Assembly (NCBI GenBank): GCA_018883305.1
Contig: VEQI01000002.1
Coordinates: forward strand, 1 to 38,336
Reading direction: 5' to 3'
Origin: Limnohabitans sp.
Lineage (GTDB): Bacteria; Pseudomonadota; Gammaproteobacteria; Burkholderiales; Burkholderiaceae_C
Length of the DNA: 38,336 nucleotides
Shown: piece after piece, positions 4,821-34,187 of the stretch
How the letters are laid out: the number at the start of each line of letters is the position of its first letter
Position numbering within the stretch: the first letter of the stretch is position 1
Translations under genes and position numbers: made by a program
Notes under the pieces: model-generated
What the model saw: only the letters and a program-made list of their open reading frames with translations
Told to the model about the DNA's origin: nothing
The model's database searches: none

Positions 4821-5734
4821 AGGCACCTTGCATGTCGATGTTTCCCCACTACGCCCCCTCACACCGCTTGGTCTGGCTGTTCTGTGCGGGTGCCTCTCTC
4901 TCAGCCCATGAGGCCACCGTGACCAGTGGTGCCCAGATCCTCATTCAGGATCTGGAGGATTTCACGCCGCCTGAATTGCGCACACAGGCCAGGGCCATGG
5001 CGCCAGACTTGTTCAACGCTGCGCGTGCGCGGGGCACCATGGTGTGCGTGCGCATCAATCTGTTGAGCCAGGAAGGTCTGGTCGATCTGGAAGCGGTGAT
5101 GCCGCATCGCCCCGACGTGATTTCTTATCCGAAGGCGGAACGTGCGCTGGACATGGCTGCGTTGTCCGAACACATTGGCCGGTTGGAACGCTTGCATGGT
5201 ATTCCGCTGGGCCAGACGGAAATTCTGCCGGTGTGTGAAACCGCGCTGGGCGTGGTGGAGGTGCGTTCACTGGCGGCAGCCACCCCGCGGGTGCGTGCCG
5301 CTTTGCTGGGTACCGAAGATCTGGCCAGTGACTTGCAAGCGGAGCGCGGCACCGATGGCTTGGAACTGGACCATGCGCGTCGCCGCTTTCTGCTCGAGTG
5401 CCGTGCGGCGCGCATCGAACCGGTGGATGCGCCCTACACCTTTGCCGATGAGGCCGGTGCCGTGGCCGAGACCCGCTATTCGCGCCGCCTGGGCTATCAA
5501 ACCAAGAGCCTGGTGAACCCCGCCATGGTGCGTTCGGTGCAGGCTGCCTTGGCGCCATCGCCTGCAGACATTGCCCTGGCCCGCGAGACCGTGACGCTGT
5601 TTGAAGCAGCGCGCGCGCGTGGCGAGGACCGTGCTCTGGTACGCGACCTGTGGGTCGAGGTGCCCACCTATCTCAATGCCCGCCGTCTGCTGGAGCGGGC
5701 ACAAGGACTGTCAACACAAGGAGCCCCACGATGA
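4817..5734 (+). CDS. HpcH/HpaI aldolase / citrate lyase beta (CitE)-like protein
   Basis: 'ILIQDLEDFTPPELRTQAR', 'VCVRIN', 'ILPVCETALGVVEV', 'ALLGTEDLASDL'. Start may be TTG 4817 or ATG 4832. Confidence 0.88.
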   Translation: MKAPCMSMFPHYAPSHRLVWLFCAGASLSAHEATVTSGAQILIQDLEDFTPPELRTQARAMAPDLFNAARARGTMVCVRINLLSQEGLVDLEAVMPHRPDVISYPKAERALDMAALSEHIGRLERLHGIPLGQTEILPVCETALGVVEVRSLAAATPRVRAALLGTEDLASDLQAERGTDGLELDHARRRFLLECRAARIEPVDAPYTFADEAGAVAETRYSRRLGYQTKSLVNPAMVRSVQAALAPSPADIALARETVTLFEAARARGEDRALVRDLWVEVPTYLNARRLLERAQGLSTQGAPR

Positions 5735-6738
5735 ACCACCCATCGCCTGACATGCTTTCGAAGTCAACCCTCATGCGCCGCCGTGGCTGGTGGCGTCTGT
5801 TGCAGGGCCTGGTGGTGATGGGGGGCTTGTCTGCATCTTTGGGATGGGCCCAAACGGCAGCACCGATTCGGCTGCTGGTGGGGTATGCCGCGGGGGGACC
5901 CGTTGACGCGGCGGCTCGTTTGTTCGCGCCCGTGCTGTCGCGTGAACTCGGTCAGTCCGTGGTGGTGGAGAACCGCCCGGGTGCGGGCGGGGTGCTGGCG
6001 GGGGACTTGGTGGCCAAGGCTGCGCCCAATGGTCAGGTGCTGTTTTTTGGCGCCAGCCCCACCATGACCATCAGTCCGCATGTGCTCAAGTCCATGCCGT
6101 TTGACACCCTGCGCGATCTGGCGCCCATTGCGCCCATCCTGAGCTACGCCAACATGCTGGTGGTGAACAAGGACCAGCCCTTTCGCAATGTGGCCGAGCT
6201 CACCGCGTATGCACGTGCCAACCCTGGCAAGGTGTCCTATGGTTCCGCCGGCATGGGGGGCTCCAACCACCTCAGTGGCGAGTTGTTTGCCAAACGGGTG
6301 GGTGCACAGTTGACGCATGTGCCTTACAAAGGCAATGCACCAGCCATGACCGACGTGGTGGGTGGGCAGTTGACCATGATGTTTGACATCGTGGGCACCG
6401 CGCGCAATTACGTGAACTCGGGTCGCGTGCGGGCGCTGGCCGTGACATCGCGTGAACGCAACCCTTCCGTGCCCGATGTGCCCACCCTGCGCGAGAGCGG
6501 CGTGGACTTCGAGGTGGGTGGTTGGTATGGCTTGTACGGGCCGCCGCAATTGCCGGCGGAACTGGTCCAGCGCTTCAACGATGCCACGCGACGTGCGCTG
6601 GCGCAAGAGGAGTTGCGCAGCAAGCTGGTGGAGCAGGGCTATGACCTGTGGGTGGGGTCGCCGCAAATGCTGGCCGAACGTGCCACGCGAGAGCTGTCCC
6701 TGTGGGGAAGCGTCACGCAGGGCATGAAGTTCGATTGA
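5731..6738 (+). CDS. Bug/TctC family tripartite tricarboxylate transporter substrate-binding protein
   Basis: Signal peptide then 'PIRLLVGYAAGGPVDAAARLFAPVLSRELGQSVVVENRPGAGGVLAGD', 'THVPYKGNAPAMTDVVGGQL'. ATGA overlap with the upstream stop. Confidence 0.95.
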   Translation: MNHPSPDMLSKSTLMRRRGWWRLLQGLVVMGGLSASLGWAQTAAPIRLLVGYAAGGPVDAAARLFAPVLSRELGQSVVVENRPGAGGVLAGDLVAKAAPNGQVLFFGASPTMTISPHVLKSMPFDTLRDLAPIAPILSYANMLVVNKDQPFRNVAELTAYARANPGKVSYGSAGMGGSNHLSGELFAKRVGAQLTHVPYKGNAPAMTDVVGGQLTMMFDIVGTARNYVNSGRVRALAVTSRERNPSVPDVPTLRESGVDFEVGGWYGLYGPPQLPAELVQRFNDATRRALAQEELRSKLVEQGYDLWVGSPQMLAERATRELSLWGSVTQGMKFD

Positions 6739-6744
6739 ACCGCC

Positions 6745-7745
6745 TCAGTCCAGGCTCAGTTTGTTGTCGTGGATGATGCGCGCATAACGCTTGCGGTCAT
6801 CGGCAATCAGCTGCACGAATTCGGCGGGCGTTCCACCCTTGGCGACCGCGCCCTGGGCCAGCAACTGTTGCTGCACCTCCGGCATGGCCAGCACTTGCTG
6901 AATACCACTGGACACCTTGTCCACAATCTCCTTGGGCGTTCCCGCGGGCGCCAGCAAGCCCAGCCATGAGCCTGACTCTGCACCGCTCACGCCCGCTTCC
7001 TGCAACGTGGGCGTGTCGGGCAGGGCGGGCACCCGTTGCTTGCTGGTGATGGCCAATCCCTTGAGCTTGCCCGACTTGATGTAGGCCGAGGTTTCCAGCA
7101 CCGAGGCAAACAGCATGTGCACATTGCCGGAGATCAGGTCCGTCATGGCCGCACCACCGCCTTTGTAAGGGACATGCAGGATCTGCGTGTCGGTGGCAAT
7201 CTTGAAGGTTTCCGCGGACAAGTGGGGTGAACCGCCATTGCCTGAGCTGGCATAGGTCAACTGGTTGGGATTGGACTTGGCCAGCGCCACCAACTCTTTG
7301 ACGTTTTGCACGGGCAGACTGTTGGTCACGGCCAGCACAAACGGCAGTTCGGCAAAGAGACCAATAGGCACAAACGCCGTGTCGGGGTTGTAGTTGAGTT
7401 TTTTGTACAGCGTGGGATTGATGGACTGCGTGCCCACGTTGCCTGTCAACAGGGTATAGCCGTCCGGCTTGGCCCGGGACACCACCTCCAGGCCCACGTT
7501 GCCACCCGCGCCTCCCTTGTTGTCCACCACCACCGATTGTCCCCACAGCTGCGACAAGCGTTGCGCCACGATGCGGGTGCCAATGTCGGTGCCACCACCC
7601 GGTGCAAAGGGCACCACGATGGTGACGGTTCGGGTCGGCCATGCTGTGGATTGCGCATAACAGGGGCGCTGCAGACACACAGGGCCGCCAGGGCGGACAA
7701 GAGCTTCAGACAGGGGCGCAAGGCATGATTCACAGGGTTCTCCAT
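6745..7745 (-). pseudogene. Bug/TctC family substrate-binding protein, apparent frameshift between signal peptide and mature domain
   Basis: Mature part 'YAQSTAWPTRTVTIVVPFAPGGGTDIGTRI...' is one frame; the signal peptide 'MENPVNHALRPCLKLLSALAALCVCSAP' (ATG at 7745) is in another. One inserted base near 7655-7665 would join them. Confidence 0.75.
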
Positions 7746-7817
7746 CGGTGCTGAAGTCCACATCCTAGTGCAAGATACGTGATTGTTCTTTTCATTTCTG
7801 CCAAGGAGACTCTCGCC

Positions 7818-9002
7818 ATGCCGCTGGTTCATGACACCGCTCACGCCTTCATGCCCTACCCGGAGGTGGACGTTCCGCGCGCCAGCACGGGCCCCCTCAG
7901 CGGCCTCACCTTTGGCGTCAAAGACTTGTTCGATGTGGCCGGCTATCCCACCAGTGGGGGGCAACCCTTCCTGCTGGCCATGTCGGGGATCAAGACCCGA
8001 CATGCGGAGACGGTGGAACGCCTGTTACAAGCCGGTGCCAGTTTTGTCGGCAAAACCGTCACGGACGAACTGGCGTTTTCCGTCAATGGTCAGAATGCGC
8101 ACTTTGGCTCACCCATCAATGGGGCCGCACCTGATCGCATCAGCGGTGGCTCCTCCAGTGGGTCCGCATCTGCGGTGTCCAATGGCTTGTGCGATTTTGC
8201 CCTGGGGACCGACACCGGCGGCTCGGTGCGCGCGCCCGCCAACCATTGCGGCCTCATCGGTCTGCGTCCCACGCACGGACGTGTCAGTCTGCGTGGTGCC
8301 CTCGATATGGCGCCCAGTCTGGACACCTGTGGATGGTTTGCCCGTGACATCGACACTTTTGACCGGGTGGGTGAGGTCTTGCTGGGCGAGGATGCACAGC
8401 CTTTGCCTTCACAGGTCCGTCTGCTGCGGTCCCCTCAGCTGGATGACCTCTTGCTGTCGCCCGCCAAACCGGCGGTACTGGCAGCCATGGAGCAGGTGGT
8501 CAACCGCTTGGGCGCGACACACGTGTTGCCGGCCGATGCGTTTGACATCGAGTCGATGTACTGGAGTGTGCGTCACATTCAAGGGCATGAGACCTGGGGC
8601 GTGAATCGCGCGCTCATCACCCGTTACGCGCCGCCCTTGGGTCCGGGTGTGGCGGAACGCTTTGCGTGGTCCAGTCAGGTCACCGATGCCCAGATGGAGG
8701 AAGGCCGTGCCCTGCGTGCGCAGTTGCGACAGCGCTGGCTGGCGGTGCTGGGTCAGGATGGGGTCCTGGTGATGCCTACGATGCCGGACATCGCGCCCTT
8801 GTGCTCACAAAGCGAAGGCGAGCTGGATGACTTTCGCCAACGGGCGGTGCGTTTGCTGTGTTTGGCGGGACTCACGGGTTGTCCGCAAATCAGTTTGCCA
8901 TTGGCCTCACGCGAGGGTGCGCCGCTGGGTGTCTCGTTGATGGCCGCACCAGGGAATGATCGGTCATTGATTCGTTTGGCACAACGTGTGATGAAGGGTT
9001 GA
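7818..9002 (+). CDS. Amidase (amidase-signature family)
   Basis: 'GGSSSGSASAVSNGLCDFALGTDTGGSVRAPANHCGLIGLRPTHGRVS' amidase signature; RBS AAGGAGA before ATG 7818. Confidence 0.92.
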   Translation: MPLVHDTAHAFMPYPEVDVPRASTGPLSGLTFGVKDLFDVAGYPTSGGQPFLLAMSGIKTRHAETVERLLQAGASFVGKTVTDELAFSVNGQNAHFGSPINGAAPDRISGGSSSGSASAVSNGLCDFALGTDTGGSVRAPANHCGLIGLRPTHGRVSLRGALDMAPSLDTCGWFARDIDTFDRVGEVLLGEDAQPLPSQVRLLRSPQLDDLLLSPAKPAVLAAMEQVVNRLGATHVLPADAFDIESMYWSVRHIQGHETWGVNRALITRYAPPLGPGVAERFAWSSQVTDAQMEEGRALRAQLRQRWLAVLGQDGVLVMPTMPDIAPLCSQSEGELDDFRQRAVRLLCLAGLTGCPQISLPLASREGAPLGVSLMAAPGNDRSLIRLAQRVMKG

Positions 9003-9544: not shown

Positions 9545-10462
9545 ATGACTCCTTGCATCGGCATTGACCTGGGCGGAACCAAGACCGAAATTGCCGTCCT
9601 GGATACACGTGGTCATTTTTTGTGGCGCCATCGCGAACCCACACCTGCACACGACTACGCAGCCATGTTGGGCTTGATGGCAGCGTTGGTTCGCCAAGCC
9701 GTCAAGGCCTGTGATCTTCCGTGGCCTTCGCGTATTGGTTGCGGCATTCCGGGCACGCTCGATCCCGTCACGCAACGTGTCAGAGGCGCCAACACACAGA
9801 GGCTCAACGGACAACCATTGGCGCGTGACTTGTCGGCCATGCTGAATATGCAGGTGCGCGTTCAAAACGATGCCAACTGCCTGGCCGTCAGTGAAGCCGT
9901 GGACGGCGCAGGGGCGGGCGTCGAGATGGTGTTTGCCGTTATTCTGGGCACAGGGTGTGGTGGCGGTCTGGCAGTGCAGCAACGCGTTCACACTGGACGC
10001 AACGCGCTGGCAGGCGAATGGGGCCACAACCCCTTGCCCTGGCCCACCCCGTCAGAGTTGCAGGCGCCGCCGTGCTGGTGTGGTTTGCAAGGTTGCCTGG
10101 AAACCTGGGTCAGCGGGCCGGGCTGGTCGAATGCGCATCAGCGCGATACGGGCCAGATGCTGGCACCGCCAGAGATCTGGTCGGCCATGGAGTCGGGCGA
10201 TGTGAACGCCACGCGCAGTGTTGAGCAGTGGTTGGACCGCCTGGCACGTGGCTTGTCTCAGGTGGTGAATCTGATGGACCCGGACCTGATCGTGCTGGGT
10301 GGCGGTATGAGCAATTTGCCCGGGGTGTCCGAGCGCATCGAAGCCTTGATTGCCCGTCATGCCTTTTATCGTGGTGCGCGCACACCGGTTCGGGTGGCCT
10401 TGCACGGGGATTCGTCGGGCGTACGAGGCGCAGCCTGGCTGGCTCGTGACACATCGGCCTGA
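9545..10462 (+). CDS. ROK family sugar kinase (fructokinase-like)
   Basis: 'IGIDLGGTKTEIAVL', 'ILGTGCGGGLAV', 'GEWGHNPLPW', Cys-rich 'PCWCGLQGCLETWVSGPG' ROK signature. Confidence 0.92.
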   Translation: MTPCIGIDLGGTKTEIAVLDTRGHFLWRHREPTPAHDYAAMLGLMAALVRQAVKACDLPWPSRIGCGIPGTLDPVTQRVRGANTQRLNGQPLARDLSAMLNMQVRVQNDANCLAVSEAVDGAGAGVEMVFAVILGTGCGGGLAVQQRVHTGRNALAGEWGHNPLPWPTPSELQAPPCWCGLQGCLETWVSGPGWSNAHQRDTGQMLAPPEIWSAMESGDVNATRSVEQWLDRLARGLSQVVNLMDPDLIVLGGGMSNLPGVSERIEALIARHAFYRGARTPVRVALHGDSSGVRGAAWLARDTSA

Positions 10463-10507: not shown

Positions 10508-12940
10508 TCAGGACAAGGCGCTATCGCGTACGTGCTGGGCGGTGGCTTTGATAGCGTCGTTTTCTGCGCGCAAGCGGGCAATGTCCTCGGGTGTGAGTCC
10601 CTCGATGCTGAGGTAGTGACGCTTCCAGTCGGGGTCTCCCGGCCAGCGCACCGCATTGCGCTGCGTGGTGCGTGCCTGCGAGGCTTGTTCCAACACGTCC
10701 AGGGCGGCACGCACACTGGCATCTTGTGAAGCTGTGTCATAGGGCAAGCCTGCTGAATGGCCCAGTGGCAGATCACTGAACAAAAACCGTGGCACACCCA
10801 CATGCTCCACGATGTCCAGCGCCGCGCCCATGATGACGGTGGCTATGCCGTGCGCCTCCAGATGGCGCGCCACCAGGCTCATGGTCTGATGACACACCGG
10901 GCAATTGGGCACCAGAATGGCCACATCAGCGCCGTCTTCTTGACATCGGCGCAACACCTCCGGGGCATCCACCGCCAACGTGTGGCGTTGACTGCGGTTG
11001 GTGGGCACGCCGTGAAAGCGCGGTGCCAGTTCACCGATCTCGCCACGCGCCACCGCACGGCGCAACGCCGGCAATGGAAACCAGGTGTTGCTGTCATCGC
11101 TCAGATGACGACGATCCACCATGACATGCGAGACCCGCAGATCATGGTCTTGGCGGGTATCACCCGAATACACCTGATAGAACTTCACGGCCGCGTTGTA
11201 GGGCGCACTCGCATCTTGCGGCCCTTGATCTGGTTGATAGGGCGCTGCCGTGGTGAGCAACACCACGCGGGACTGGGCCAGGGGCTTGCGCAAGGGTTGG
11301 AAGGGGACGTCTTCAAAGTGCGCATACCGGTAAGGGTTGGCATAGCCCAAGGTTTCATACCAGATGCGCGTGCGATCGATGTAAGCCAGTGGCGGGTGCT
11401 GGCTGTCCACGTATTGCTCGCGCAGTTCACGCTTGAGCACCTTCCCAATCTCGCTGCGTGGCAGTGTGGGTACGATGACCAGGTCTGCCACGCGCTGGGT
11501 CTTGCCCACGCGTTCGTTGACAAATGTTCGCAAGGTGTTCGCCGACACCTCGGCCGTTTCATGGATCACCACATAGGCCACCGGTGTTTCGCCCCACTGG
11601 TGAGAGGGCACGCCCACCACCGCACACTCTTTCACGGCTGGGTGCTGCCTCAGTTCGGCCTCGATGTCCGACGGGTAGACATTGAAGCCGCCGGTGATGA
11701 TCATGTCTTTTTTTCGATCACCCAAAATCAGAAAGCCGTCGGCATCGAAGCGTCCCACATCCCCGGTGCGAATGAAGCGTTTGCCGCTGGCATCATGCCA
11801 TTCCACTTCGCGCGTCTTCTCCGGCATGCGGTGGTAGCCCTTCATGATGGCGACCGAATGGCCCACCACCTCGCCACTCTCGCCAGGACCGACCTCGATG
11901 CCATGCTCATCGATGAGCCGGATGTCGTGGCCCGCGGCCGGTCGACCCACGGTGTGCAGCTTGTCCGGATGGTCCGTGGCATACAACTCGCAGCGACCAC
12001 CGCCTTCGGTCATGCCGTAATACTCGGTCAACCGACCCGGCCAGCGCTGCATCACCTGCCGCTTGAGATCGGCACGGAACGGCGCACTGGTGCAGAACTT
12101 GGCCTCGAAGCTGCTGAGGTCATAGTGGTCAAAATCGGGGAAATCCATCAGTCGCTGATATTGCACCGGCACCAACATGGTGTGGGTGGCACGATGCAAC
12201 TGAGCTAACTCAAGGTAGTGCCGCACATCGAACTTGGACATCATCACGCAAGTGCCACCCAGCCCCAGCGTGGGAATGACCGACACCAGGGTGGTGTTGG
12301 AATACAGCGGCGTGGCCACCAGGTTGACCGTGCGTTCGTCATAGCGGTTGGCATGTCCGCGCTGAATTTGCGCCCAGCGCATGCTCCAGGGTTGCAGAAT
12401 GCCTTTGGGGACGCCGGTGGTGCCAGAGGAATAAATCAGGTTGAACGCCCAATCCGGTTGAGGGCTCACCGCTTGGGGGTGTGGGTCAGGACCGGCGGCG
12501 GCCAGCCAGGCCTGCCAGGCTTCGCCCGTGGGGCCATTGTCCAAGCTGACCACTGGCCAATCTTGGGCGGCCGTGGCGGGCAACCGCCCCAGGGCATCCG
12601 CATCCAGAAAGAGCACGCGTGGCTGGGCGTTGTCCAGCATGGCTTGCAAATGGGCTGCCGAGGAAGAGGGCGCCAGCGGAGCCGCGATCACCCCCGCGCG
12701 CAGGCCGCCCATGAACGCCACCACGTACTCGATGGAGGAGGTGGCGCACAGGGCGATGACATCGCCAGGTTGCAGGCCGGCCTGTTGCAATCGCGTTGCA
12801 ACTTGATCCATCTGACGGTCCAGGCCGGCGTAATCCAGGGTGCGGCCGTTGCAGATCAGCGCGGGGTGCTGGCCACGTCGCTGGGCATGCAGGTGAATCA
12901 GGTCGGGCAGGGACCCAAAGGAGTGCTCTAACGGGTTCAT
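10508..12940 (-). CDS. Fusion: N-terminal acyl-CoA synthetase (AMP-binding/ANL) with C-terminal GrdB-like reductase domain
   Basis: ANL motifs 'YSSGTTGVPKGILQ', 'YYGMTEGGG', 'GDRKKDMIITGGFNVYPSDIE', 'SEIGKVLKREL'. C-terminal 'LRVSHVMVDRRHLSDDSNTWFPLPALRRAVARGEIGELAPRFHG...VAILVPNCPVCHQTMSLVARHLEAHGIATVIMG' resembles glycine/betaine/sarcosine reductase component B. ATG 12940 preferred over the 12982 ORF start. Confidence 0.82.
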   Translation of the reverse strand: MNPLEHSFGSLPDLIHLHAQRRGQHPALICNGRTLDYAGLDRQMDQVATRLQQAGLQPGDVIALCATSSIEYVVAFMGGLRAGVIAAPLAPSSSAAHLQAMLDNAQPRVLFLDADALGRLPATAAQDWPVVSLDNGPTGEAWQAWLAAAGPDPHPQAVSPQPDWAFNLIYSSGTTGVPKGILQPWSMRWAQIQRGHANRYDERTVNLVATPLYSNTTLVSVIPTLGLGGTCVMMSKFDVRHYLELAQLHRATHTMLVPVQYQRLMDFPDFDHYDLSSFEAKFCTSAPFRADLKRQVMQRWPGRLTEYYGMTEGGGRCELYATDHPDKLHTVGRPAAGHDIRLIDEHGIEVGPGESGEVVGHSVAIMKGYHRMPEKTREVEWHDASGKRFIRTGDVGRFDADGFLILGDRKKDMIITGGFNVYPSDIEAELRQHPAVKECAVVGVPSHQWGETPVAYVVIHETAEVSANTLRTFVNERVGKTQRVADLVIVPTLPRSEIGKVLKRELREQYVDSQHPPLAYIDRTRIWYETLGYANPYRYAHFEDVPFQPLRKPLAQSRVVLLTTAAPYQPDQGPQDASAPYNAAVKFYQVYSGDTRQDHDLRVSHVMVDRRHLSDDSNTWFPLPALRRAVARGEIGELAPRFHGVPTNRSQRHTLAVDAPEVLRRCQEDGADVAILVPNCPVCHQTMSLVARHLEAHGIATVIMGAALDIVEHVGVPRFLFSDLPLGHSAGLPYDTASQDASVRAALDVLEQASQARTTQRNAVRWPGDPDWKRHYLSIEGLTPEDIARLRAENDAIKATAQHVRDSALS

Positions 12941-12994
12941 CCGCGGCATGTTAACCGAGCACCTCGGGCGGTGCGGCCGCACGCGTGACGGCTG

Positions 12995-13483
12995 TCAGGC
13001 GCGGTAATCGATGATGTGCTGTCCGTTGGAGACGCGATGCACCGGCGACGGCGTCTGGACGCTGGATGGGCCTGTGGCAGGGTGATGGACTCCAGCGCCC
13101 GTGCCATGGCGTGATGAAGAGGCGGCGGGTGACGACGGCATGGAGGAATGGTTCGTAGCAACCGGGTGTGCATGCGCCCAGTCATTCCAGGCGGCCAGCC
13201 CCTCATCGCGTAGCTCATGGGCCAGTTGTTTGGCCATGCGTGCGTTGCTGCTTTGCAAGGCATTGCCAATGCGGTGCAGCAAGGGGTGGTTGCTCAATGC
13301 TGGGTCTTCATGTACCAGGCCGGCAAACTGCAGTCGTGCGGCATCCAGGTCGCCGCGCTCCAGGGCATCGACCAAGTCGATCAGCCAGTGCGCGCGACGA
13401 TGACGTCGGGGCGGCACGTCCATGGCGTGGCCGCTGCCTTGGCCGCTCAATCCCTCGATCCGTAGGCCGAACATGTGGTCCAT
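12995..13483 (-). CDS. Hypothetical protein, His/Ser-rich C-terminus
   Basis: Open frame upstream of and co-oriented with the ligase-GrdB fusion; N-terminal part looks helical ('RAHWLIDLVDALERGDLDAARLQFAGLVHEDPAL'). No family recognised. Confidence 0.55.
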   Translation of the reverse strand: MDHMFGLRIEGLSGQGSGHAMDVPPRRHRRAHWLIDLVDALERGDLDAARLQFAGLVHEDPALSNHPLLHRIGNALQSSNARMAKQLAHELRDEGLAAWNDWAHAHPVATNHSSMPSSPAASSSRHGTGAGVHHPATGPSSVQTPSPVHRVSNGQHIIDYRA

Positions 13484-13666: not shown

Positions 13667-14764
13667 ATGAAGCGTCGGCAATGGATTCAGCACGGTGGTT
13701 TGGCAGGCATCCTCGCTGCGGGTAGCGCCCCGGCCCTGGCACAGGCCCTGCCCGAGGTTCGCTGGCGCATGACGTCCAGCTTTCCCAAAACCCTGGACAC
13801 ACTGTATGGCGCCGCTGAAAACGTGGCCCGTCGCGTGAATGATGCGACCGGTGGCAAGTTTCAAATTAAAACCTTTGCGGCCGGTGAAATTGTCCCTGGC
13901 CTGCAAGTGCTGGATGCGGTTCAGAACGCCTCTGTCGAGGTGGGGCAAACCGCCATGTACTACTACTTCGGCAAGAACCCGGCCTTTGCCTTTGCCTCCT
14001 GCATGCCGTTTGGCATGAATGCACGTCAGCAAAATGCCTGGTGGTATTACGGCGGTGGTGAGGAGCTATACAACGAGTTTCTCAAGCCATTCAATTGCTA
14101 CGCCATTCCCTATGGCAACACCGGGACGCAAATGGGCGGCTGGTTCCGCAAGGAGATCAAGACCATCAACGACCTCAAGGGACTGAAGTTCCGGGTGGGG
14201 GGCGTGGCCGGGCAGATTCTCCTGCGCCTGGGGGTGGTGCCGCAGCAGATTGCCGCTGGCGACATTTATCCGGCGCTGGAGAAAGGCACCATAGATGCTG
14301 CTGAATGGATTGGTCCACATGATGATGATCGCCTGGGCATAGCCAAGGTGGCCAAGTACTACTACACGCCGGGCTGGTGGGAGGGCAACTCGTCCGGTCA
14401 CATGATCGTCAACCTCAAGGCCTGGGAGGCCCTGCCCAAGGAATACCAGCAGATCTTTATGGCCGCCTGTGGCGAGTCCAATGCCATGACCCTGTCCAAG
14501 TACGACCACTTGAACCCCGTGGGGCTCAAGAAGTTGCTGGCTGGGGGTGCACAGTTGCGTGTGTTTCCCAAGGCCGTGCTGGACGCTTGCTATGCGGCCA
14601 CGCAGGAGCAGTACAGCGAGTGGGCGGCCAAACACCCCGAGTTCAAGACCCTGCTCACGTCCTACATGAACTACCTGCAGGAAGAGATCGCCTGGTTCCG
14701 CGTGGCCGAGGGCAGCTATGACAGCTACATGTCGCAGGTGATGCAAAAGAGCGCGCGCAAGTAA
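13667..14764 (+). CDS. TRAP transporter substrate-binding protein (DctP/TakP-like), Tat-like signal
   Basis: 'MKRRQWIQHGGLAGILAAGSAPALAQ', 'VRWRMTSSFPKTLDTLYGAAENVARRV', 'TQMGGWFRKEIKTINDLKGLKFRVGG', 'AAEWIGPHDD'. Confidence 0.92.
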   Translation: MKRRQWIQHGGLAGILAAGSAPALAQALPEVRWRMTSSFPKTLDTLYGAAENVARRVNDATGGKFQIKTFAAGEIVPGLQVLDAVQNASVEVGQTAMYYYFGKNPAFAFASCMPFGMNARQQNAWWYYGGGEELYNEFLKPFNCYAIPYGNTGTQMGGWFRKEIKTINDLKGLKFRVGGVAGQILLRLGVVPQQIAAGDIYPALEKGTIDAAEWIGPHDDDRLGIAKVAKYYYTPGWWEGNSSGHMIVNLKAWEALPKEYQQIFMAACGESNAMTLSKYDHLNPVGLKKLLAGGAQLRVFPKAVLDACYAATQEQYSEWAAKHPEFKTLLTSYMNYLQEEIAWFRVAEGSYDSYMSQVMQKSARK

Positions 14765-18217: not shown

Positions 18218-19240
18218 TCAGGGCTTGATATTGCCCTTGCGGATGACGTCAGAGAACACGCTGGACACCATCTTGAGGTACTTGGTGAAGTCCTCGTTTT
18301 TGCGGAAGTCGATTTCGATGGCGATGCCGTCGAACGCTTTCTTCATCTCCGGTGTCTGCATGGCTTTTTCCAGCACGTTGGTGAGCTGATCCACGATGGG
18401 TCGCGGTGTATTGGCTGGCGCCATCATGCCGAACCAGGCGCCCAGATCAAAGCCAGGGATGCCGGCCGCCGTGGCCAGGGGGGGCACGCCGGGCGTGACG
18501 CTGCTGCCTTTTTCCAACGAGACGCCATAGGCTTTGAGACGGCCATTGCGAACAAAAGGCAAGGTGGAACCCGCCGTTTCAATACAGTAGGCCACTTGCC
18601 CACTGATCACGTCTGTCAGAGCCGGCACTGATCCTTTGTAGGGGACATGCGTGGCCTGCAGTCCCAGCGCGGCGTTGAAGGACTCACAGATCAGGTGCGC
18701 GGTGGCGCCGGTCCCGGAGGAGGCGAAGGAATACTTGTTGGGGTTGCCCTTGATCAGCGCGACCAACTCCTTGGCGTCCTTGGCGGGAAAGTCCATGCCC
18801 GTCACCAGCAGGTAGGGGGACAGTCCCAGCATGGCAATGGGGGCGAAGTCTTTGTCGGAATCGTAGGGTGTTTTGGTGAACAGCGGGCTGATGCTCACCG
18901 GACCACTGGAGGCTGCCAAGAGGGTGTATCCGTCAGCCGGGGCCTTGGCCACAGCGTCCGTGCCAATGGTGCCGCCAGCACCTGCGCGGTTATCGATGAC
19001 AAAGGGCTGTCCCAGAATCTTGCTCAATTCCTGGCCCAGCACACGAGCAGCCAGGTCGGTGGCCTGCCCGGGAGGCCAGGGCACCATGAGCTTGATGGGT
19101 CGGTTGGGGTACGCTGCTTGGGCCTGAGCTGGTGCGTGCAAGCCTACCACGCTGGCAGCACCGATGGCGGCCGTCTGGCTCAGCAGATCTCGACGGGTGA
19201 TTCCGGACAGTGGGGAAAAGGGATGCGTTTTGCGGTTCAT
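18218..19240 (-). CDS. Bug/TctC family substrate-binding protein with Tat signal
   Basis: 'ITRRDLLSQTAAIGAASVVGLHAPAQAQAAYPNRPIKLMVPWPPGQATDLAARVLGQELSKILGQPFVIDNRAGAGGTIGTDAVAKAPADGYTLL'. Confidence 0.95.
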   Translation of the reverse strand: MNRKTHPFSPLSGITRRDLLSQTAAIGAASVVGLHAPAQAQAAYPNRPIKLMVPWPPGQATDLAARVLGQELSKILGQPFVIDNRAGAGGTIGTDAVAKAPADGYTLLAASSGPVSISPLFTKTPYDSDKDFAPIAMLGLSPYLLVTGMDFPAKDAKELVALIKGNPNKYSFASSGTGATAHLICESFNAALGLQATHVPYKGSVPALTDVISGQVAYCIETAGSTLPFVRNGRLKAYGVSLEKGSSVTPGVPPLATAAGIPGFDLGAWFGMMAPANTPRPIVDQLTNVLEKAMQTPEMKKAFDGIAIEIDFRKNEDFTKYLKMVSSVFSDVIRKGNIKP

Positions 19241-21696: not shown

Positions 21697-22503
21697 TCAC
21701 TTGCCTTTGAACACGGGTTTGCGTTTTTCGTTGAAGGCGCGCACACCTTCGTAGCGGTCTTCGGTTTCCACCAGGTGGTTGTAGGCCTCGACCTCGAAAC
21801 GGAAGGCGGTACGAAGTTCCATTTCGAAACCATAACGAACGGACTTCTTGATTTGCCGTACGGACAGCGGGGCATTGCCGGCGATGGTGGTGGCCGTTTG
21901 CAAGGCCATGGCCAGCACCTGATCCGGCTCGGCGATGTCATTGAACAAACCCCAGGCCAGGGCTTTTTGCGCGCTGATGGGTTGGCCCGTCATCAACAGT
22001 TCCTTGGCACGGCGTTGACCCACGGCACGGGGCAAATTCTGGGTGCCGCCAGCGCCCGGCATGATGCCCAGCGTGACTTCGGTCAGGGCAAATCGCGCCG
22101 CATTGGAGGCGTAGGCAAAGTCGCAGCTCAGCACGGTTTCAAAACCACCGGCATAGGCATGGCCGTTCACAGCGGCGATCACTGGAATGGGCATGTCGGT
22201 GAGGGTCCAGTACATGCGTTCAAACAACTCATGCTGCTTGATCCACTGTTCCTTGGTCATGCCGTTGCGCTCTTTCAAATCGCCACCCGAGCAGAAAATC
22301 TTGTTGGGACCCGCGCCCGTCAGCACGATGCAGCGCACATCGCCGGCGTCCTCGGTCAGGCGGCTCCACAGGTCAAACAGGTCGCGACCCATCTGGGTGC
22401 TGATGGCGTTGCCCACTTCAGGGCGATTCAGGGTGACTTGCAATACGTGCGGCGCGACCATCTCGGTCAGCACGGTGGCGTAAGCGGGCAGGGACAAAGT
22501 CAT
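21697..22503 (-). CDS. Enoyl-CoA hydratase/isomerase family protein
   Basis: 'LQVTLNRPEVGNAI', 'CIVLTGAGPNKIFCSGGDLKE', 'AAVNGHAYAGGFETVLSCDFAYAS', 'LGIMPGAGGTQNLPRAVG'. Confidence 0.94.
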   Translation of the reverse strand: MTLSLPAYATVLTEMVAPHVLQVTLNRPEVGNAISTQMGRDLFDLWSRLTEDAGDVRCIVLTGAGPNKIFCSGGDLKERNGMTKEQWIKQHELFERMYWTLTDMPIPVIAAVNGHAYAGGFETVLSCDFAYASNAARFALTEVTLGIMPGAGGTQNLPRAVGQRRAKELLMTGQPISAQKALAWGLFNDIAEPDQVLAMALQTATTIAGNAPLSVRQIKKSVRYGFEMELRTAFRFEVEAYNHLVETEDRYEGVRAFNEKRKPVFKGK

Positions 22504-22506
22504 GGA

Positions 22507-23661
22507 TTAACTCCTCGGGTTCAAGATCGATTCGGTATGTTCGCCCAGCTTGGGCGGCGCGCCCCGCGACACGGGACGTTGCCCATCCAGGCTCAGGGGC
22601 AGGGTGACAAAACGCATGGAGGTGTCCGGGACCGGCTGGATCAAGCCCAGGGCCTGGGTTTGCGGATGCTCGGCCATTTGCTGAATGGTTTGCACAGGTG
22701 AGCAGGGAATGCCCGCCGCCTCCAGGGCCTCCACCCATTCACGAGTGGGGCGCTGAGACATCAGTTCGTCGAGCAGGCGGTACAACTCCACCTGGTTGCG
22801 CACGCGTGAGGGGTTGTCCACAAAACGCGGATCTTCGATCCACTCGGGATGCCCCACCACCTTGGCCAGGCTGCGAAACAAGCTGTCGCTGCCGGCCGCC
22901 ACCACCACTTCGCCATCCAGCGTCATGTAAGCCTTGTAGGGGGCAATGCCAGGTGCCCCCGAGCCCTGTTTCTGCGGGCTTTCCCCCGTGCACAGGTATT
23001 GCGCGGTGAGCAGCGAGGTCCAGGAGGCCGCTGTTTCAAACAGGGAGACATCCACGACGCGGCCACGTCCGGTCTGTTGACGCTCATACAAGGCGGTGAG
23101 AATGCCCACCACCGACCACAGGCCCGTGCCCATGTCCACGATCGAGGCGCCCACGCGCACGGAGGGACGACCAGGTTCGCCGGTGGTGCTCATCACGCCG
23201 CCAAAGGCCTGCATCAGTGGGTCATAGCCCGGGCGCTCTTTCAAGGGACCTTCGCGCCCGAAGGCGCCCAAATTGCAATACACCAAGGAGGGCTTGGTGG
23301 CCAGCAAGGTGGGGCCGTCGATGCCCAGCTTTTCCACGTGACCAGGGCGAAGGTTTTGCAGCACCACGTCGGCGCGCTCGATGATGAGTTGCTTGAGGGC
23401 GGCGGCTTCCTGGGCATCTCGGAAATTGCAGACCACAGAACGCTTGTTGCGATTGAGTGACTGGAAAAACGCGGAGGCACCTTCCCAAAAGGGCGGACCC
23501 CATCGGCGTGCATCGTCGCCGTCGGACTTTTCCACCTTGATGACATCGGCGCCAAGCTCACTCAGGATGTGACCAGCAAAGGGGGCGGCCACACTGTGAC
23601 CCAATTCAATGACCACCAGACCTTTGAAGGGTTGGGGGGCGGTGGAGGAAGATGCGCTCAT
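22507..23661 (-). CDS. CaiB/BaiF family CoA-transferase
   Basis: 'LVVIELGHSVAAPFAGHILSELGADVIKVEKSDGDDARRWGPPF', 'FQSLNRNKRSVVCNF', 'RPGYDPLMQAFGGVMSTTGEPGRPSVRVGASIVDMGTG'. Confidence 0.95.
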   Translation of the reverse strand: MSASSSTAPQPFKGLVVIELGHSVAAPFAGHILSELGADVIKVEKSDGDDARRWGPPFWEGASAFFQSLNRNKRSVVCNFRDAQEAAALKQLIIERADVVLQNLRPGHVEKLGIDGPTLLATKPSLVYCNLGAFGREGPLKERPGYDPLMQAFGGVMSTTGEPGRPSVRVGASIVDMGTGLWSVVGILTALYERQQTGRGRVVDVSLFETAASWTSLLTAQYLCTGESPQKQGSGAPGIAPYKAYMTLDGEVVVAAGSDSLFRSLAKVVGHPEWIEDPRFVDNPSRVRNQVELYRLLDELMSQRPTREWVEALEAAGIPCSPVQTIQQMAEHPQTQALGLIQPVPDTSMRFVTLPLSLDGQRPVSRGAPPKLGEHTESILNPRS

Positions 23662-23847: not shown

Positions 23848-24834
23848 ATGAAATCCTTGCCCAGTTTTGCTTCAATGCGTCGTGTCTGTTGGCTGATCGG
23901 TGTGTTGAGCACCTTAAGCGTGCAAGCCTGGGCACAGGCCTATCCTGCCAAGCCGTTGAAAATTCTGGTGCCCTTTGTCGCCGGTGGCACCAGCGACATC
24001 GTGGCCCGCGCCGTGGCGCAAAAGCTCAATGAAGCGGGGTATGTCACGGTGGTGGAAAACCGTCCAGGGGCCAATGGCTCATTGGCGGCCGAGGCCACCG
24101 CCAAATCGCCCAACGACGGTTACACCATTCTGGTCGGCTCGATTGGCACCTTCGCCATCAACATGAGCCTGTACAAACAGCCCAAGTACGACGTGATGCG
24201 CGACTTCGAGGCGATCACGGTGGCGGTGCGCACGCCCAATGTGCTCATCACGCCGCCGGGCTTGCCTGCCGCCAACGTGAAAGAGTTCATCGCCTATGCC
24301 AAGGCCAATCCTGGCAAGGTGGCCTATGGTTCCTCTGGCTCCGGGTCCAGCGACCACCTGTCCGCCGAACTGTTCAAGCAGCAAACCAATACCTTTGGCG
24401 TGCACATCCCCTACCGGGGTGGCGCAGCCGCGCAAATGGACATCATGGCCGGCAACATCGAGGCGTCCTTTCAGAACTTTGGGACCGTGGTGCCCTACAT
24501 CCGCTCCGGCAAGATGAAAGCCCTGGCCGTGACCTCGCGCGAGCGCATGCCGCAATTGCCGAACGTGCCCACCATGATCGAGAGCGGCTTGTTCGATTTC
24601 GATGTCACGTCCTGGCAAGCCCTGGTGGCGCCCAAAGGAACCCCGCGCGAGATTGTGGCCAAGCTTCAGGCCGACATTGCGCGTGGTCTGCGTTCACCCG
24701 ATGTGGCCCAGCGCTTCAAGGACCAGGGGTTCGAGATCGTGGCCAATACGCCGGAGCAGGCCAGTGCCTTTTTCAAGTCCGAGATCGATCGCTGGGCCGT
24801 GGTGGTGAAAGCCTCTGGTGCCACCGTGGATTGA
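23848..24834 (+). CDS. Bug/TctC family substrate-binding protein
   Basis: Signal peptide, then 'YPAKPLKILVPFVAGGTSDIVARAVAQKLNEAGYVTVVENRPGANGSLAAEATAKSPNDGYTIL'. Confidence 0.95.
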   Translation: MKSLPSFASMRRVCWLIGVLSTLSVQAWAQAYPAKPLKILVPFVAGGTSDIVARAVAQKLNEAGYVTVVENRPGANGSLAAEATAKSPNDGYTILVGSIGTFAINMSLYKQPKYDVMRDFEAITVAVRTPNVLITPPGLPAANVKEFIAYAKANPGKVAYGSSGSGSSDHLSAELFKQQTNTFGVHIPYRGGAAAQMDIMAGNIEASFQNFGTVVPYIRSGKMKALAVTSRERMPQLPNVPTMIESGLFDFDVTSWQALVAPKGTPREIVAKLQADIARGLRSPDVAQRFKDQGFEIVANTPEQASAFFKSEIDRWAVVVKASGATVD

Positions 24835-27714: not shown

Positions 27715-28707
27715 ATGTTCACGTTTTTGTCGCTTCCTTGTTTTCGTCGGTGGGCCATCCTGGCCCTGGGTACCCTGTTGGGTGGCCTGGCGCTGGCGCA
27801 GGATTACCCGAATCGCCCGATCACCCTGGTGATGCCCTATGCGGCTGGCGGGCCCGGCGATGTCATCACCCGCATTTATGCAGCGGCCCTGCAAAAAAGC
27901 CTGGGACAGCAAGTGGTGGTGGAGAACCCGGCCGGTGCGGCGGGGTCCATCGGCACGGCCAAGGTCGCGCGCAGCAAGCCGGATGGATACACCTTGTTGA
28001 TGATCCATGTCAGCCATGCCACCAACCCGTTCATGTTCAAGTCCTTGAGCTACAACCCGGTGGAAGACTTTGAGCCCATTGGACTGGCCACGGAAGGGCC
28101 GATGTTGCTGGTGGCCAGGAAGGATTTTCCGGCGCGTGATGCGCGTGAGTTTCTGGACTATGTGCGCGCCAATGCTTCCAAGCTCAGCATGGGTCACGCC
28201 GGCCCGGGCTCGGCCGCGCATTTGTGCAACCTGAAATTCATGCAGGCCCTCAAGGTGGATATCACCCAGGTGCCTTACAAGGGCGCGGCGCCCGCTCTCA
28301 ACGACTTGATGGGCGGACAACTCGACCTGATGTGCGACCAAACCTCCAACAACCTGCCCACGGTGCAAAGTGGTCGTGTGCGTGCCTATGCCGTGGCTGG
28401 CACCCAACGGCTGGCGCAAGTGCCGGACGTGCCTTCACTGCAAGAGGCCGGTTTGTCTGGCTTTGAGATCAGCATCTTTTTTGGCATGTACGCGCCCAAG
28501 GGCACACCCAAGCCCGTGCTGGATCGCCTGACAGCGGCATTGCAACAAGCCGTGCGAGACCCCGACGTCAAGGCACGACTGGCCGCCTTGGCCACCTTGC
28601 CAGTGCCGGTGGAGAAAGCCCGGCCTGAAGCCTTGCGGGCGCACCTGAAATCAGAAATCGATACCTTGGGACCTTTGTTGCAAGGGGCGGGGATCAAGCC
28701 TGAATGA
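27715..28707 (+). CDS. Bug/TctC family substrate-binding protein
   Basis: Signal peptide, then 'YPNRPITLVMPYAAGGPGDVITRIYAAALQKSLGQQVVVENPAGAAGSIGTAKVARSKPDGYTLL'. Confidence 0.95.
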   Translation: MFTFLSLPCFRRWAILALGTLLGGLALAQDYPNRPITLVMPYAAGGPGDVITRIYAAALQKSLGQQVVVENPAGAAGSIGTAKVARSKPDGYTLLMIHVSHATNPFMFKSLSYNPVEDFEPIGLATEGPMLLVARKDFPARDAREFLDYVRANASKLSMGHAGPGSAAHLCNLKFMQALKVDITQVPYKGAAPALNDLMGGQLDLMCDQTSNNLPTVQSGRVRAYAVAGTQRLAQVPDVPSLQEAGLSGFEISIFFGMYAPKGTPKPVLDRLTAALQQAVRDPDVKARLAALATLPVPVEKARPEALRAHLKSEIDTLGPLLQGAGIKPE

Positions 28708-33038: not shown

Positions 33039-34001
33039 TCAATCGGGTTTGATATTGCCTTCACGGATCACCTTGGACCACTTGCGCATCTCGGAGCGGG
33101 TGAAGCTGTCCAGTTCCTGCGGCGAGGTGGGGCTGGCAATGGCGCCCAGCTCCTCGATGCGCTGACGCACGTCGGGCAGGGACAAGATGCGTGTGACGTC
33201 AGTGTTGATGCGGGTGATGGCCTCGGCAGGTGTGCCAGCGGGCGCCAGCAGCGCGCCCCAGGTGAAGGCTTCATAGCCCTGCAGGCCCGGCATTTCATCC
33301 AGCGCCGGGGTTTGCGGCCAGGAACTCAGGCGTTGACGATTGCCGGTGGCCAGTGCCTTCAGCTTGCCATTGCGCACCTGAGGACCCGATGACAACACGC
33401 TGTCAAAGAGCACACTGCACACGCCCCCGATGGCGGCAATGATGGCGGTGCCGCTGCCACTGTAAGGCACATGGGTGAGCGAGAGGCCTGTCATCGATTT
33501 GAACAACTCTGCCGCCAGGTGCGAGGGCGAACCCGCACCGATGGAACAGTAATTGGCTTGCGAGGGATTGGCCTTGACCCAGGCGATGTACTCGGCCACG
33601 GTGTTCACCGGCAATTGCGCGGGCACCACCATGAGCAGTGGGTTGACCGACAACAACGAGATGGCGCTGAAGTCTTTCAACGGGTCATAGGGTATTTTGG
33701 GAAACAGGCTGATGTTGATGGCGTGCGGACCTGCACCGGTGGAGAGCAGGGTGTAGCCATCAGGCGCGGATTTGGCCACCAGGTCACTGCCAATCATGGC
33801 TGCACCACCCGGGCGGTTATCCACCAGCACCGGCTGTTTCCAGATGTCCGAGAGCTTCTGCGCCAGCAACCGAGTGAGGATGTCGGTGGTGCCTCCAGGC
33901 GGGTAGGGCACGACGATGCGTACCGCCTTTTCTGGCCAGGCCGCCCAGGCCTGCATTCCCCAACATAGCAACAGGGCGCAAGCCCAACGTGTCCAGCGCA
34001 T
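33039..34001 (-). CDS. Bug/TctC family substrate-binding protein
   Basis: 'MRWTRWACALLLCWGMQAWAAWPEKAVRIVVPYPPGGTTDILTRLLAQKLSDIWKQPVLVDNRPGGAAMIGSDLVAKSAPDGYTLL'. Start ATG 34001. Confidence 0.94.
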   Translation of the reverse strand: MRWTRWACALLLCWGMQAWAAWPEKAVRIVVPYPPGGTTDILTRLLAQKLSDIWKQPVLVDNRPGGAAMIGSDLVAKSAPDGYTLLSTGAGPHAINISLFPKIPYDPLKDFSAISLLSVNPLLMVVPAQLPVNTVAEYIAWVKANPSQANYCSIGAGSPSHLAAELFKSMTGLSLTHVPYSGSGTAIIAAIGGVCSVLFDSVLSSGPQVRNGKLKALATGNRQRLSSWPQTPALDEMPGLQGYEAFTWGALLAPAGTPAEAITRINTDVTRILSLPDVRQRIEELGAIASPTSPQELDSFTRSEMRKWSKVIREGNIKPD

Positions 34002-34187
34002 CGTGATGTCTCCTTTTTGGTGTGGCCTTGAGTTTAGGTCGATGGACCATTCTTTGCAGACCTGCGTTGGATTGCTCCCCTGGGGAAACACCGATATGAT
34101 GCCAATCCCCCGCGATCTGCGTTGACTTGACCGGTCGACGTGAGGCAGGGACAGTCAATCAAACATCATCAAGACAGGAGTGACACC

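Follow-up and report, generated by a model that had tools for sequence, protein, structure and literature searches.

The window analysed here, a whole contig of 38,336 nucleotides from a freshwater comamonad bacterium (Limnohabitans sp.), encodes a protein in which a complete ANL acyl-CoA ligase continues in frame into a domain related to PrdB, the 26-kDa subunit of D-proline reductase. According to the reading favored here, to which a probability of roughly 0.55 can be assigned, this protein is bifunctional: the ligase would activate a carboxylic acid and the CxxC thiol pair of the second domain would then act on the activated acid. The architecture is a new combination of known families, and only the fusion itself appears to be new; no report of a ligase–PrdB-like fusion was found in the papers searched.

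The fusion gene is a single open frame (Table 1), with alternative starts at Met12 (position 12949) and Met15 (12940), in which the ligase (residues ~18–525) is followed by a linker of ~5 residues and by a PrdB-like domain of 294 residues. Comparison with stand-alone ligases indicates that the two joined modules are both complete: at the junction, the natural C-terminus of a ligase passes into the natural N-terminus of a PrdB-like module, and the codon-position GC shows that the same coding frame is kept across it. The sequence-only reading, which described a ligase continuing without a stop into a C-terminal domain, thus holds, with both domains matched by profiles; its placement of the CPVC motif at residues 694–697 was likewise accurate, but 12940, the end that it gave for the feature, is only the Met15 start, and the strand, which it left out, is minus. 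A stop or frameshift between the domains, named in that reading as one possible flaw, is not found in the assembled sequence, and the junction is in frame in a second assembly as well (L060, genome G471). That two genes were joined by an error of assembly or annotation is hardly credible: the window is admittedly the whole of one contig in a fragmented, 87% complete assembly, but the same in-frame junction recurs in the other metagenome-assembled genome (MAG) with the ROK kinase and amidase neighbors preserved, and the codon bias is continuous.

Table 1. Positions of the fusion gene, its parts and other genes in the window.
Feature	Position	Strand	Basis or remark
Fusion gene, 824 aa from GTG	10508..12982	-	Single uninterrupted ORF
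ANL acyl-CoA ligase module, residues ~18-525	11408..12931	-	Pfam domains; stand-alone homologs
Lys514 codon, A10 motif GKVLKREL	11441..11443	-	Motif position
Junction, residues 524-531	11390..11413	-	Ends of stand-alone ligases L003, L006 and starts of stand-alone PrdB-like ORFs
PrdB-like module, residues 531-824	10511..11392	-	TIGR04483 match; AF2 model
Cys694-Pro-Val-Cys697, then invariant His698	10892..10903	-	Equivalent to PrdB Sec151-x-x-Cys154
162-aa ORF	12995..13483	-	Ends 12 bp upstream of fusion start
ROK-type kinase, convergent with fusion	9545..10462	+	Syntenic in L060; named by reading the sequence
Amidase	7779..9002	+	Syntenic in L060; named by reading the sequence
TRAP-type (DctP) substrate-binding protein, divergent neighbor	13667..14764	+	Named by reading the sequence
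Enoyl-CoA hydratase and CaiB/BaiF CoA-transferase, elsewhere on contig	21697..23661	-	Linkage to fusion not implied
Bug-type receptors	5650-6738, 6745-7761, 18218-19240, 23848-24834, 27715-28707, 33039-34091	+, -, -, +, +, -	Read from sequence

The ligase half matches PF00501 (AMP-binding; residues 32–384, 11831–12889, E = 4.6e-69) and PF13193 (AMP-binding_C; residues 440–514, 11441–11665, E = 1.9e-17), and all of its motifs are intact: YSSGTTGVPKG (184), YGMTEGGG (322), TGD (406) and GKVLKREL (513). Both the domains and the P-loop, A5, A7 and A10 lysine motifs place it in the ANL superfamily; Lys514 is presumably the adenylation lysine, as in ANL enzymes generally. Stand-alone ligases of the same subfamily in other Burkholderiales are 55–68% identical to this half.

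For the last 300 residues, the top NCBIfam model is TIGR04483 (PrdB; E = 3.7e-26), with a score of 92 bits against an equivalog cut-off of 300, so that the domain falls outside the PrdB equivalog, and the GrdF, GrdH and GrdB models rank behind it (E = 1e-8 to 1e-12). PF07355 (GRDB) is matched with 25.1 bits (gathering cut-off 22, E = 1e-5), and a BLASTP comparison with the PrdB of Terrisporobacter gives 31% identity over 211 amino acids (E = 9e-27). Judged by these matches, the homology of the C-terminal domain to the PrdB/GrdB superfamily is far above chance. The earlier label, GrdB-like, is therefore correct at the level of the superfamily, but the better match to TIGR04483 makes the domain PrdB-type rather than GrdB-type; the UGSC family, which had been suggested for comparison, gave no match among the NCBIfam results for these residues. 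The AF2 model of the module, for which selenocysteine-containing rows were left out, is confident (pLDDT 92, pTM 0.91) and puts the CPVC motif at the beginning of a helix preceded by a strand, which is a common setting for a reactive thiol. A search of the PDB by sequence and by fold yielded no meaningful match to the PrdB-like domain (best Foldseek E = 0.008, TM 0.16), so that the mechanism is not readable from solved structures.

The authentic PrdBs used for alignment, those of Terrisporobacter, Peptoclostridium acidaminophilum and Ligilactobacillus plasmids, each contain one in-frame TGA, within the context TAGUGTCHR. The corresponding segment of the fusion (VPNCPVCHQ) aligns around the motif without gaps and has Cys at the U position of PrdB; the view of CPVC as the cysteine version of a catalytic U-x-x-C is borne out by this register with the UGTCHR of authentic PrdB. 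Several proteobacterial homologs, 43–59% identical, have TGA at the position of Cys694 (UPVCHQ), and SelB scored above the cut-off in all seven of the TGA-bearing genomes tested. Taken together, the PrdB alignment and the TGA-bearing homologs with SelB identify Cys694 as the Cys counterpart of the catalytic selenocysteine. The fusion is not itself a selenoprotein, having a Cys codon at 694 and no SelB over the cut-off; SelB above the cut-off was not found in the genome of the window (G000, assembly 87% complete), nor in G471, G017 and G023. In alignments of 54–65 relatives, the domain's C170, P171, H174 and Q175 never vary if U is treated as C, and C173 varies hardly at all. Cys (CPVC) and Sec (TGA, UPVC) paralogs occur within one genome in G173 and G275 (L058/L034 and L059/L033), with identities to the domain of the window of ~67% and ~46%.

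Homology to PrdB and GrdB would by itself suggest a component of a Stickland-type D-proline, glycine or betaine reductase, but this is very improbable. The TIGR04483 score (92 bits) is far from the cut-off (300), and the pyruvoyl subunit of GrdE and PrdA (PF09338) was detected in none of the 16 proteobacterial genomes searched, including that of the window (87% complete), whereas both positive controls were detected. Because this subunit was not found, a Stickland reductase and, more generally, a proline-reductase role outside anaerobes are unlikely. GrdA (PF04723) had no match in the genome of the window, in a search run without a positive control. The sequence-only reading had noted that partner genes are not visible, and neither GrdA nor a pyruvoyl partner was found.

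The spread of the fusion, which the sequence-only reading left open, is narrow: it is carried by two of the 84 genomes of the genus, was not seen in the other 79 best relatives (GTDB genomes), and no further ligase fusion turned up among homologs from samples taken at the levels of genus, order, class and phylum. The second copy (L060) is 83% identical; its contig begins inside the ligase, the start of which is missing, and an in-frame TAA in the ligase half (L060:57-59) falls among the first 60 bases of that contig, so that it may be a contig-end sequencing error, or else the copy may be a pseudogene. Between the two fusions, dN/dS comes to 0.093 in the ligase half and 0.094 in the PrdB-like half, so purifying selection is equally strong on both. 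In G017 and G023, from the same genus, and in G138 and G215, the ligase and the PrdB-like protein are encoded apart, by unlinked genes.

Further evidence comes from the neighborhoods of the stand-alone relatives, counted in 80 loci whose flanks reach 1.5 kb or more on each side of the PrdB-like gene. At 19 of these loci, which are phylogenetically non-independent, the adjacent same-strand gene encodes a CaiB/BaiF CoA-transferase or a PaaK-like ligase, compared with ~0.8 expected from the density of CoA-thioester-forming genes farther out. Family III CoA-transferases of the CaiB/BaiF type make up the majority of these partners and begin 9–114 bp downstream; a CaiB-linked version is present in Bradyrhizobium. 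Among the stand-alone relatives examined, roughly three in four lack a CoA-activating gene as their immediate neighbor. The order PaaK-like ligase, PrdB-like gene, enoyl-CoA hydratase is found in Azomonas agilis, a Pseudomonadaceae MAG and G423 (L113, L115, L154), and Oryzomicrobium and Pseudothauera have these genes as well, with one for a Bug receptor lying between them. The tree joins the two fusions to a sister clade (SH-aLRT of the union 94) that has CaiB downstream in 7 of its 14 entries. Given how common a downstream CaiB is in the sister clade, the most economical view is that the ligase of the fusion probably takes the place of the CoA-transferase as the activating step.

Several other features of these loci can be recorded. 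Clusters of PaaK-like ligase, PrdB-like gene and enoyl-CoA hydratase with Bug receptors were noted at L087, L093, L113, L115 and L154, and the receptors of tripartite transporters near many loci fit imported carboxylic acids. A link to carnitine or betaine, evoked by the name CaiB, was dropped since the CaiB neighbor tested scored below every equivalog cut-off. At L088, L089, L090, L096, L100 and L139, the PrdB-like gene lies near a class I fumarase and a PurB-type lyase (carboxymuconate cycloisomerase/adenylosuccinate lyase family), in some cases together with an FAH-type hydrolase, which is another possible pathway context.

The neighborhoods also bear on a different use of the activated acid, namely, transfer of the acyl group from acyl-AMP to Cys694 (or Cys697) instead of CoA, followed by reduction or cleavage of the acyl-S-enzyme in the manner of LuxE and LuxC. 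In the fatty-acid reductase, LuxE passes an acyl group to LuxC, and the juxtaposition of PaaK-like ligases with PrdB-like genes, like the presence of the thiol pair and the ligase within one chain, would agree with such a transfer. The most common partners, however, are CaiB/BaiF CoA-transferases, which make CoA thioesters, and the target of the PrdB side is presumably carbon rather than acyl groups, so that acyl-protein transfer appears distinctly unlikely.

A second fusion, independent of the one with the ligase, joins the PrdB-like domain to a kinase. In two Alcaligenaceae-type MAGs (L119:9905-11896 and L116:9821-11938, both on the plus strand), the CPVC-containing domain runs into a C-terminal APH-family kinase, weakly similar to MTR kinase, and the next gene encodes an enolase paralog; at a sister locus (L126:9929-11979, plus strand), the kinase is encoded separately, with its ATG overlapping the stop codon (ATGA). 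L116 and L119 were the only real fusions among eight long ORFs around other homologs; the long ORFs at L063, L070, L087, L120, L130 and L132 contain no Pfam domain and look like chance frames. In mammals, 4-hydroxyacyl-CoA is phosphorylated by the APH kinase domains that ACAD10/11 carry in fusion with acyl-CoA dehydrogenases (PMC12440821, PMC11342911). As a suggestion only, a kinase that makes a hydroxyl a leaving group would suit displacement by a thiolate.

These observations can be set against the notion of a PrdB-like half with a general thiol-disulfide or housekeeping role, accidentally fused to a ligase with which it shares no chemistry. The fusion is indeed rare, and most of the stand-alone relatives (Bradyrhizobium, Phenylobacterium and others) lie among unrelated genes; but purifying selection is equal on both halves, CoA-forming neighbors are strongly enriched, and there is a second fusion, along with an operon containing the kinase and enolase, all of which make the housekeeping role rather unlikely.

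The surroundings of the fusion in the window include a 162-aa ORF with no Pfam match and no homolog in the loci examined, which is a possible operon partner. Six Bug-type receptors (tripartite tricarboxylate transporter), named by reading their sequences, are encoded on this 38-kb contig and fit a carboxylate-scavenging lifestyle. A protein with an HPPD N-terminal domain (PF14696; 782-1663, plus strand) adjoins a sugar-phosphate-isomerase-like ORF, possibly a pair of the 3-dehydroshikimate dehydratase type, and a shikimate-dehydrogenase-like ORF lies beside them at 1-729.

Under the bifunctional reading, the N-terminal ligase would adenylate a carboxylic acid and convert it to the CoA thioester, on which the Cys694-x-x-Cys697 pair would then act; the PrdB-type domain that carries this pair corresponds to a selenoenzyme with Cys in place of Sec. 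Most likely, Cys694 would attack the carbon beside the activated carboxyl, expelling an amine, a hydroxyl or a similar group; Cys697 would resolve the adduct, with the net result of a reductive cleavage; and the resulting disulfide would be re-reduced by a cellular dithiol. Of what was proposed from the sequence alone, a thiol-dependent reaction with a CoA- or AMP-activated substrate, here an acid, is retained as the best reading; its reductive nature we infer, as we do a single substrate for both active sites and the identity of that substrate.

No function of the aerobic PrdB-like proteins was reported in the papers searched and, to our knowledge, no activity is known for any of them. The ligase fusion suggests that they work on CoA-activated acids. 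More tentatively, the aerobic proteobacterial Cys and Sec proteins might form a distinct class that cleaves CoA- or phosphate-activated acids by a thiol or selenol without a pyruvoyl subunit and whose partner varies with the lineage: a CoA-transferase, a PaaK-like ligase, an ANL ligase in fusion, or a kinase in fusion together with an enolase. The ligase fusion would be the single-chain form. According to the accounts of the ocean proteins in the sources cited, a stand-alone Cys/Sec 'PrdB' family was recognized in ocean metagenomes as early as 2005 (PMC1088965, PMC2398784), it ranks there with the most abundant families of selenoproteins (PMC2398784), and its role was borrowed from the clostridial proline reductase (PMC1088965, PMC2398784; review PMC13188914). 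The ligase fusion, together with the CoA-transferase, PaaK-type and kinase partners, points to a concrete class of substrates, CoA-activated carboxylic acids, and provides a single protein in which this idea can be tested.

Compared with known systems, the ligase half shares all core motifs with ANL ligases such as 4-coumarate-/feruloyl-CoA ligase, malonyl-CoA synthetase and the FadD types, and its PDB relatives include 3a9u, 8wev and 4fuq (E = 1e-53 to 1e-57), but, unlike the known ANL acyl-CoA ligases, it bears a C-terminal PrdB-like extension. With PrdB, the domain shares the U/C-x-x-C-H motif in register and a similar length of the core, and differs in the replacement of Sec by Cys, ~60 extra residues, the lack of a PrdA partner and the attached ligase. 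GrdB, the selenoprotein B of glycine, sarcosine and betaine reductases, belongs to the same superfamily and has the same U-x-x-C position, but only its C-terminal part aligns with the domain, with a weaker score than that of PrdB, and, unlike GrdB, the fusion has no GrdE or GrdA partners among the genes found. Stand-alone proteobacterial PrdB-like proteins are 51–69% identical to the domain and share its C/U-x-x-C motif; the Sargasso/GOS ocean 'PrdB' set, compared by its description in PMC1088965 and PMC2398784 only, has the same U-x-x-C motif and Cys homologs. These proteobacterial and ocean proteins stand alone, whereas in the window the PrdB-like domain forms the C-terminal half of a chain that starts with an acyl-CoA ligase.
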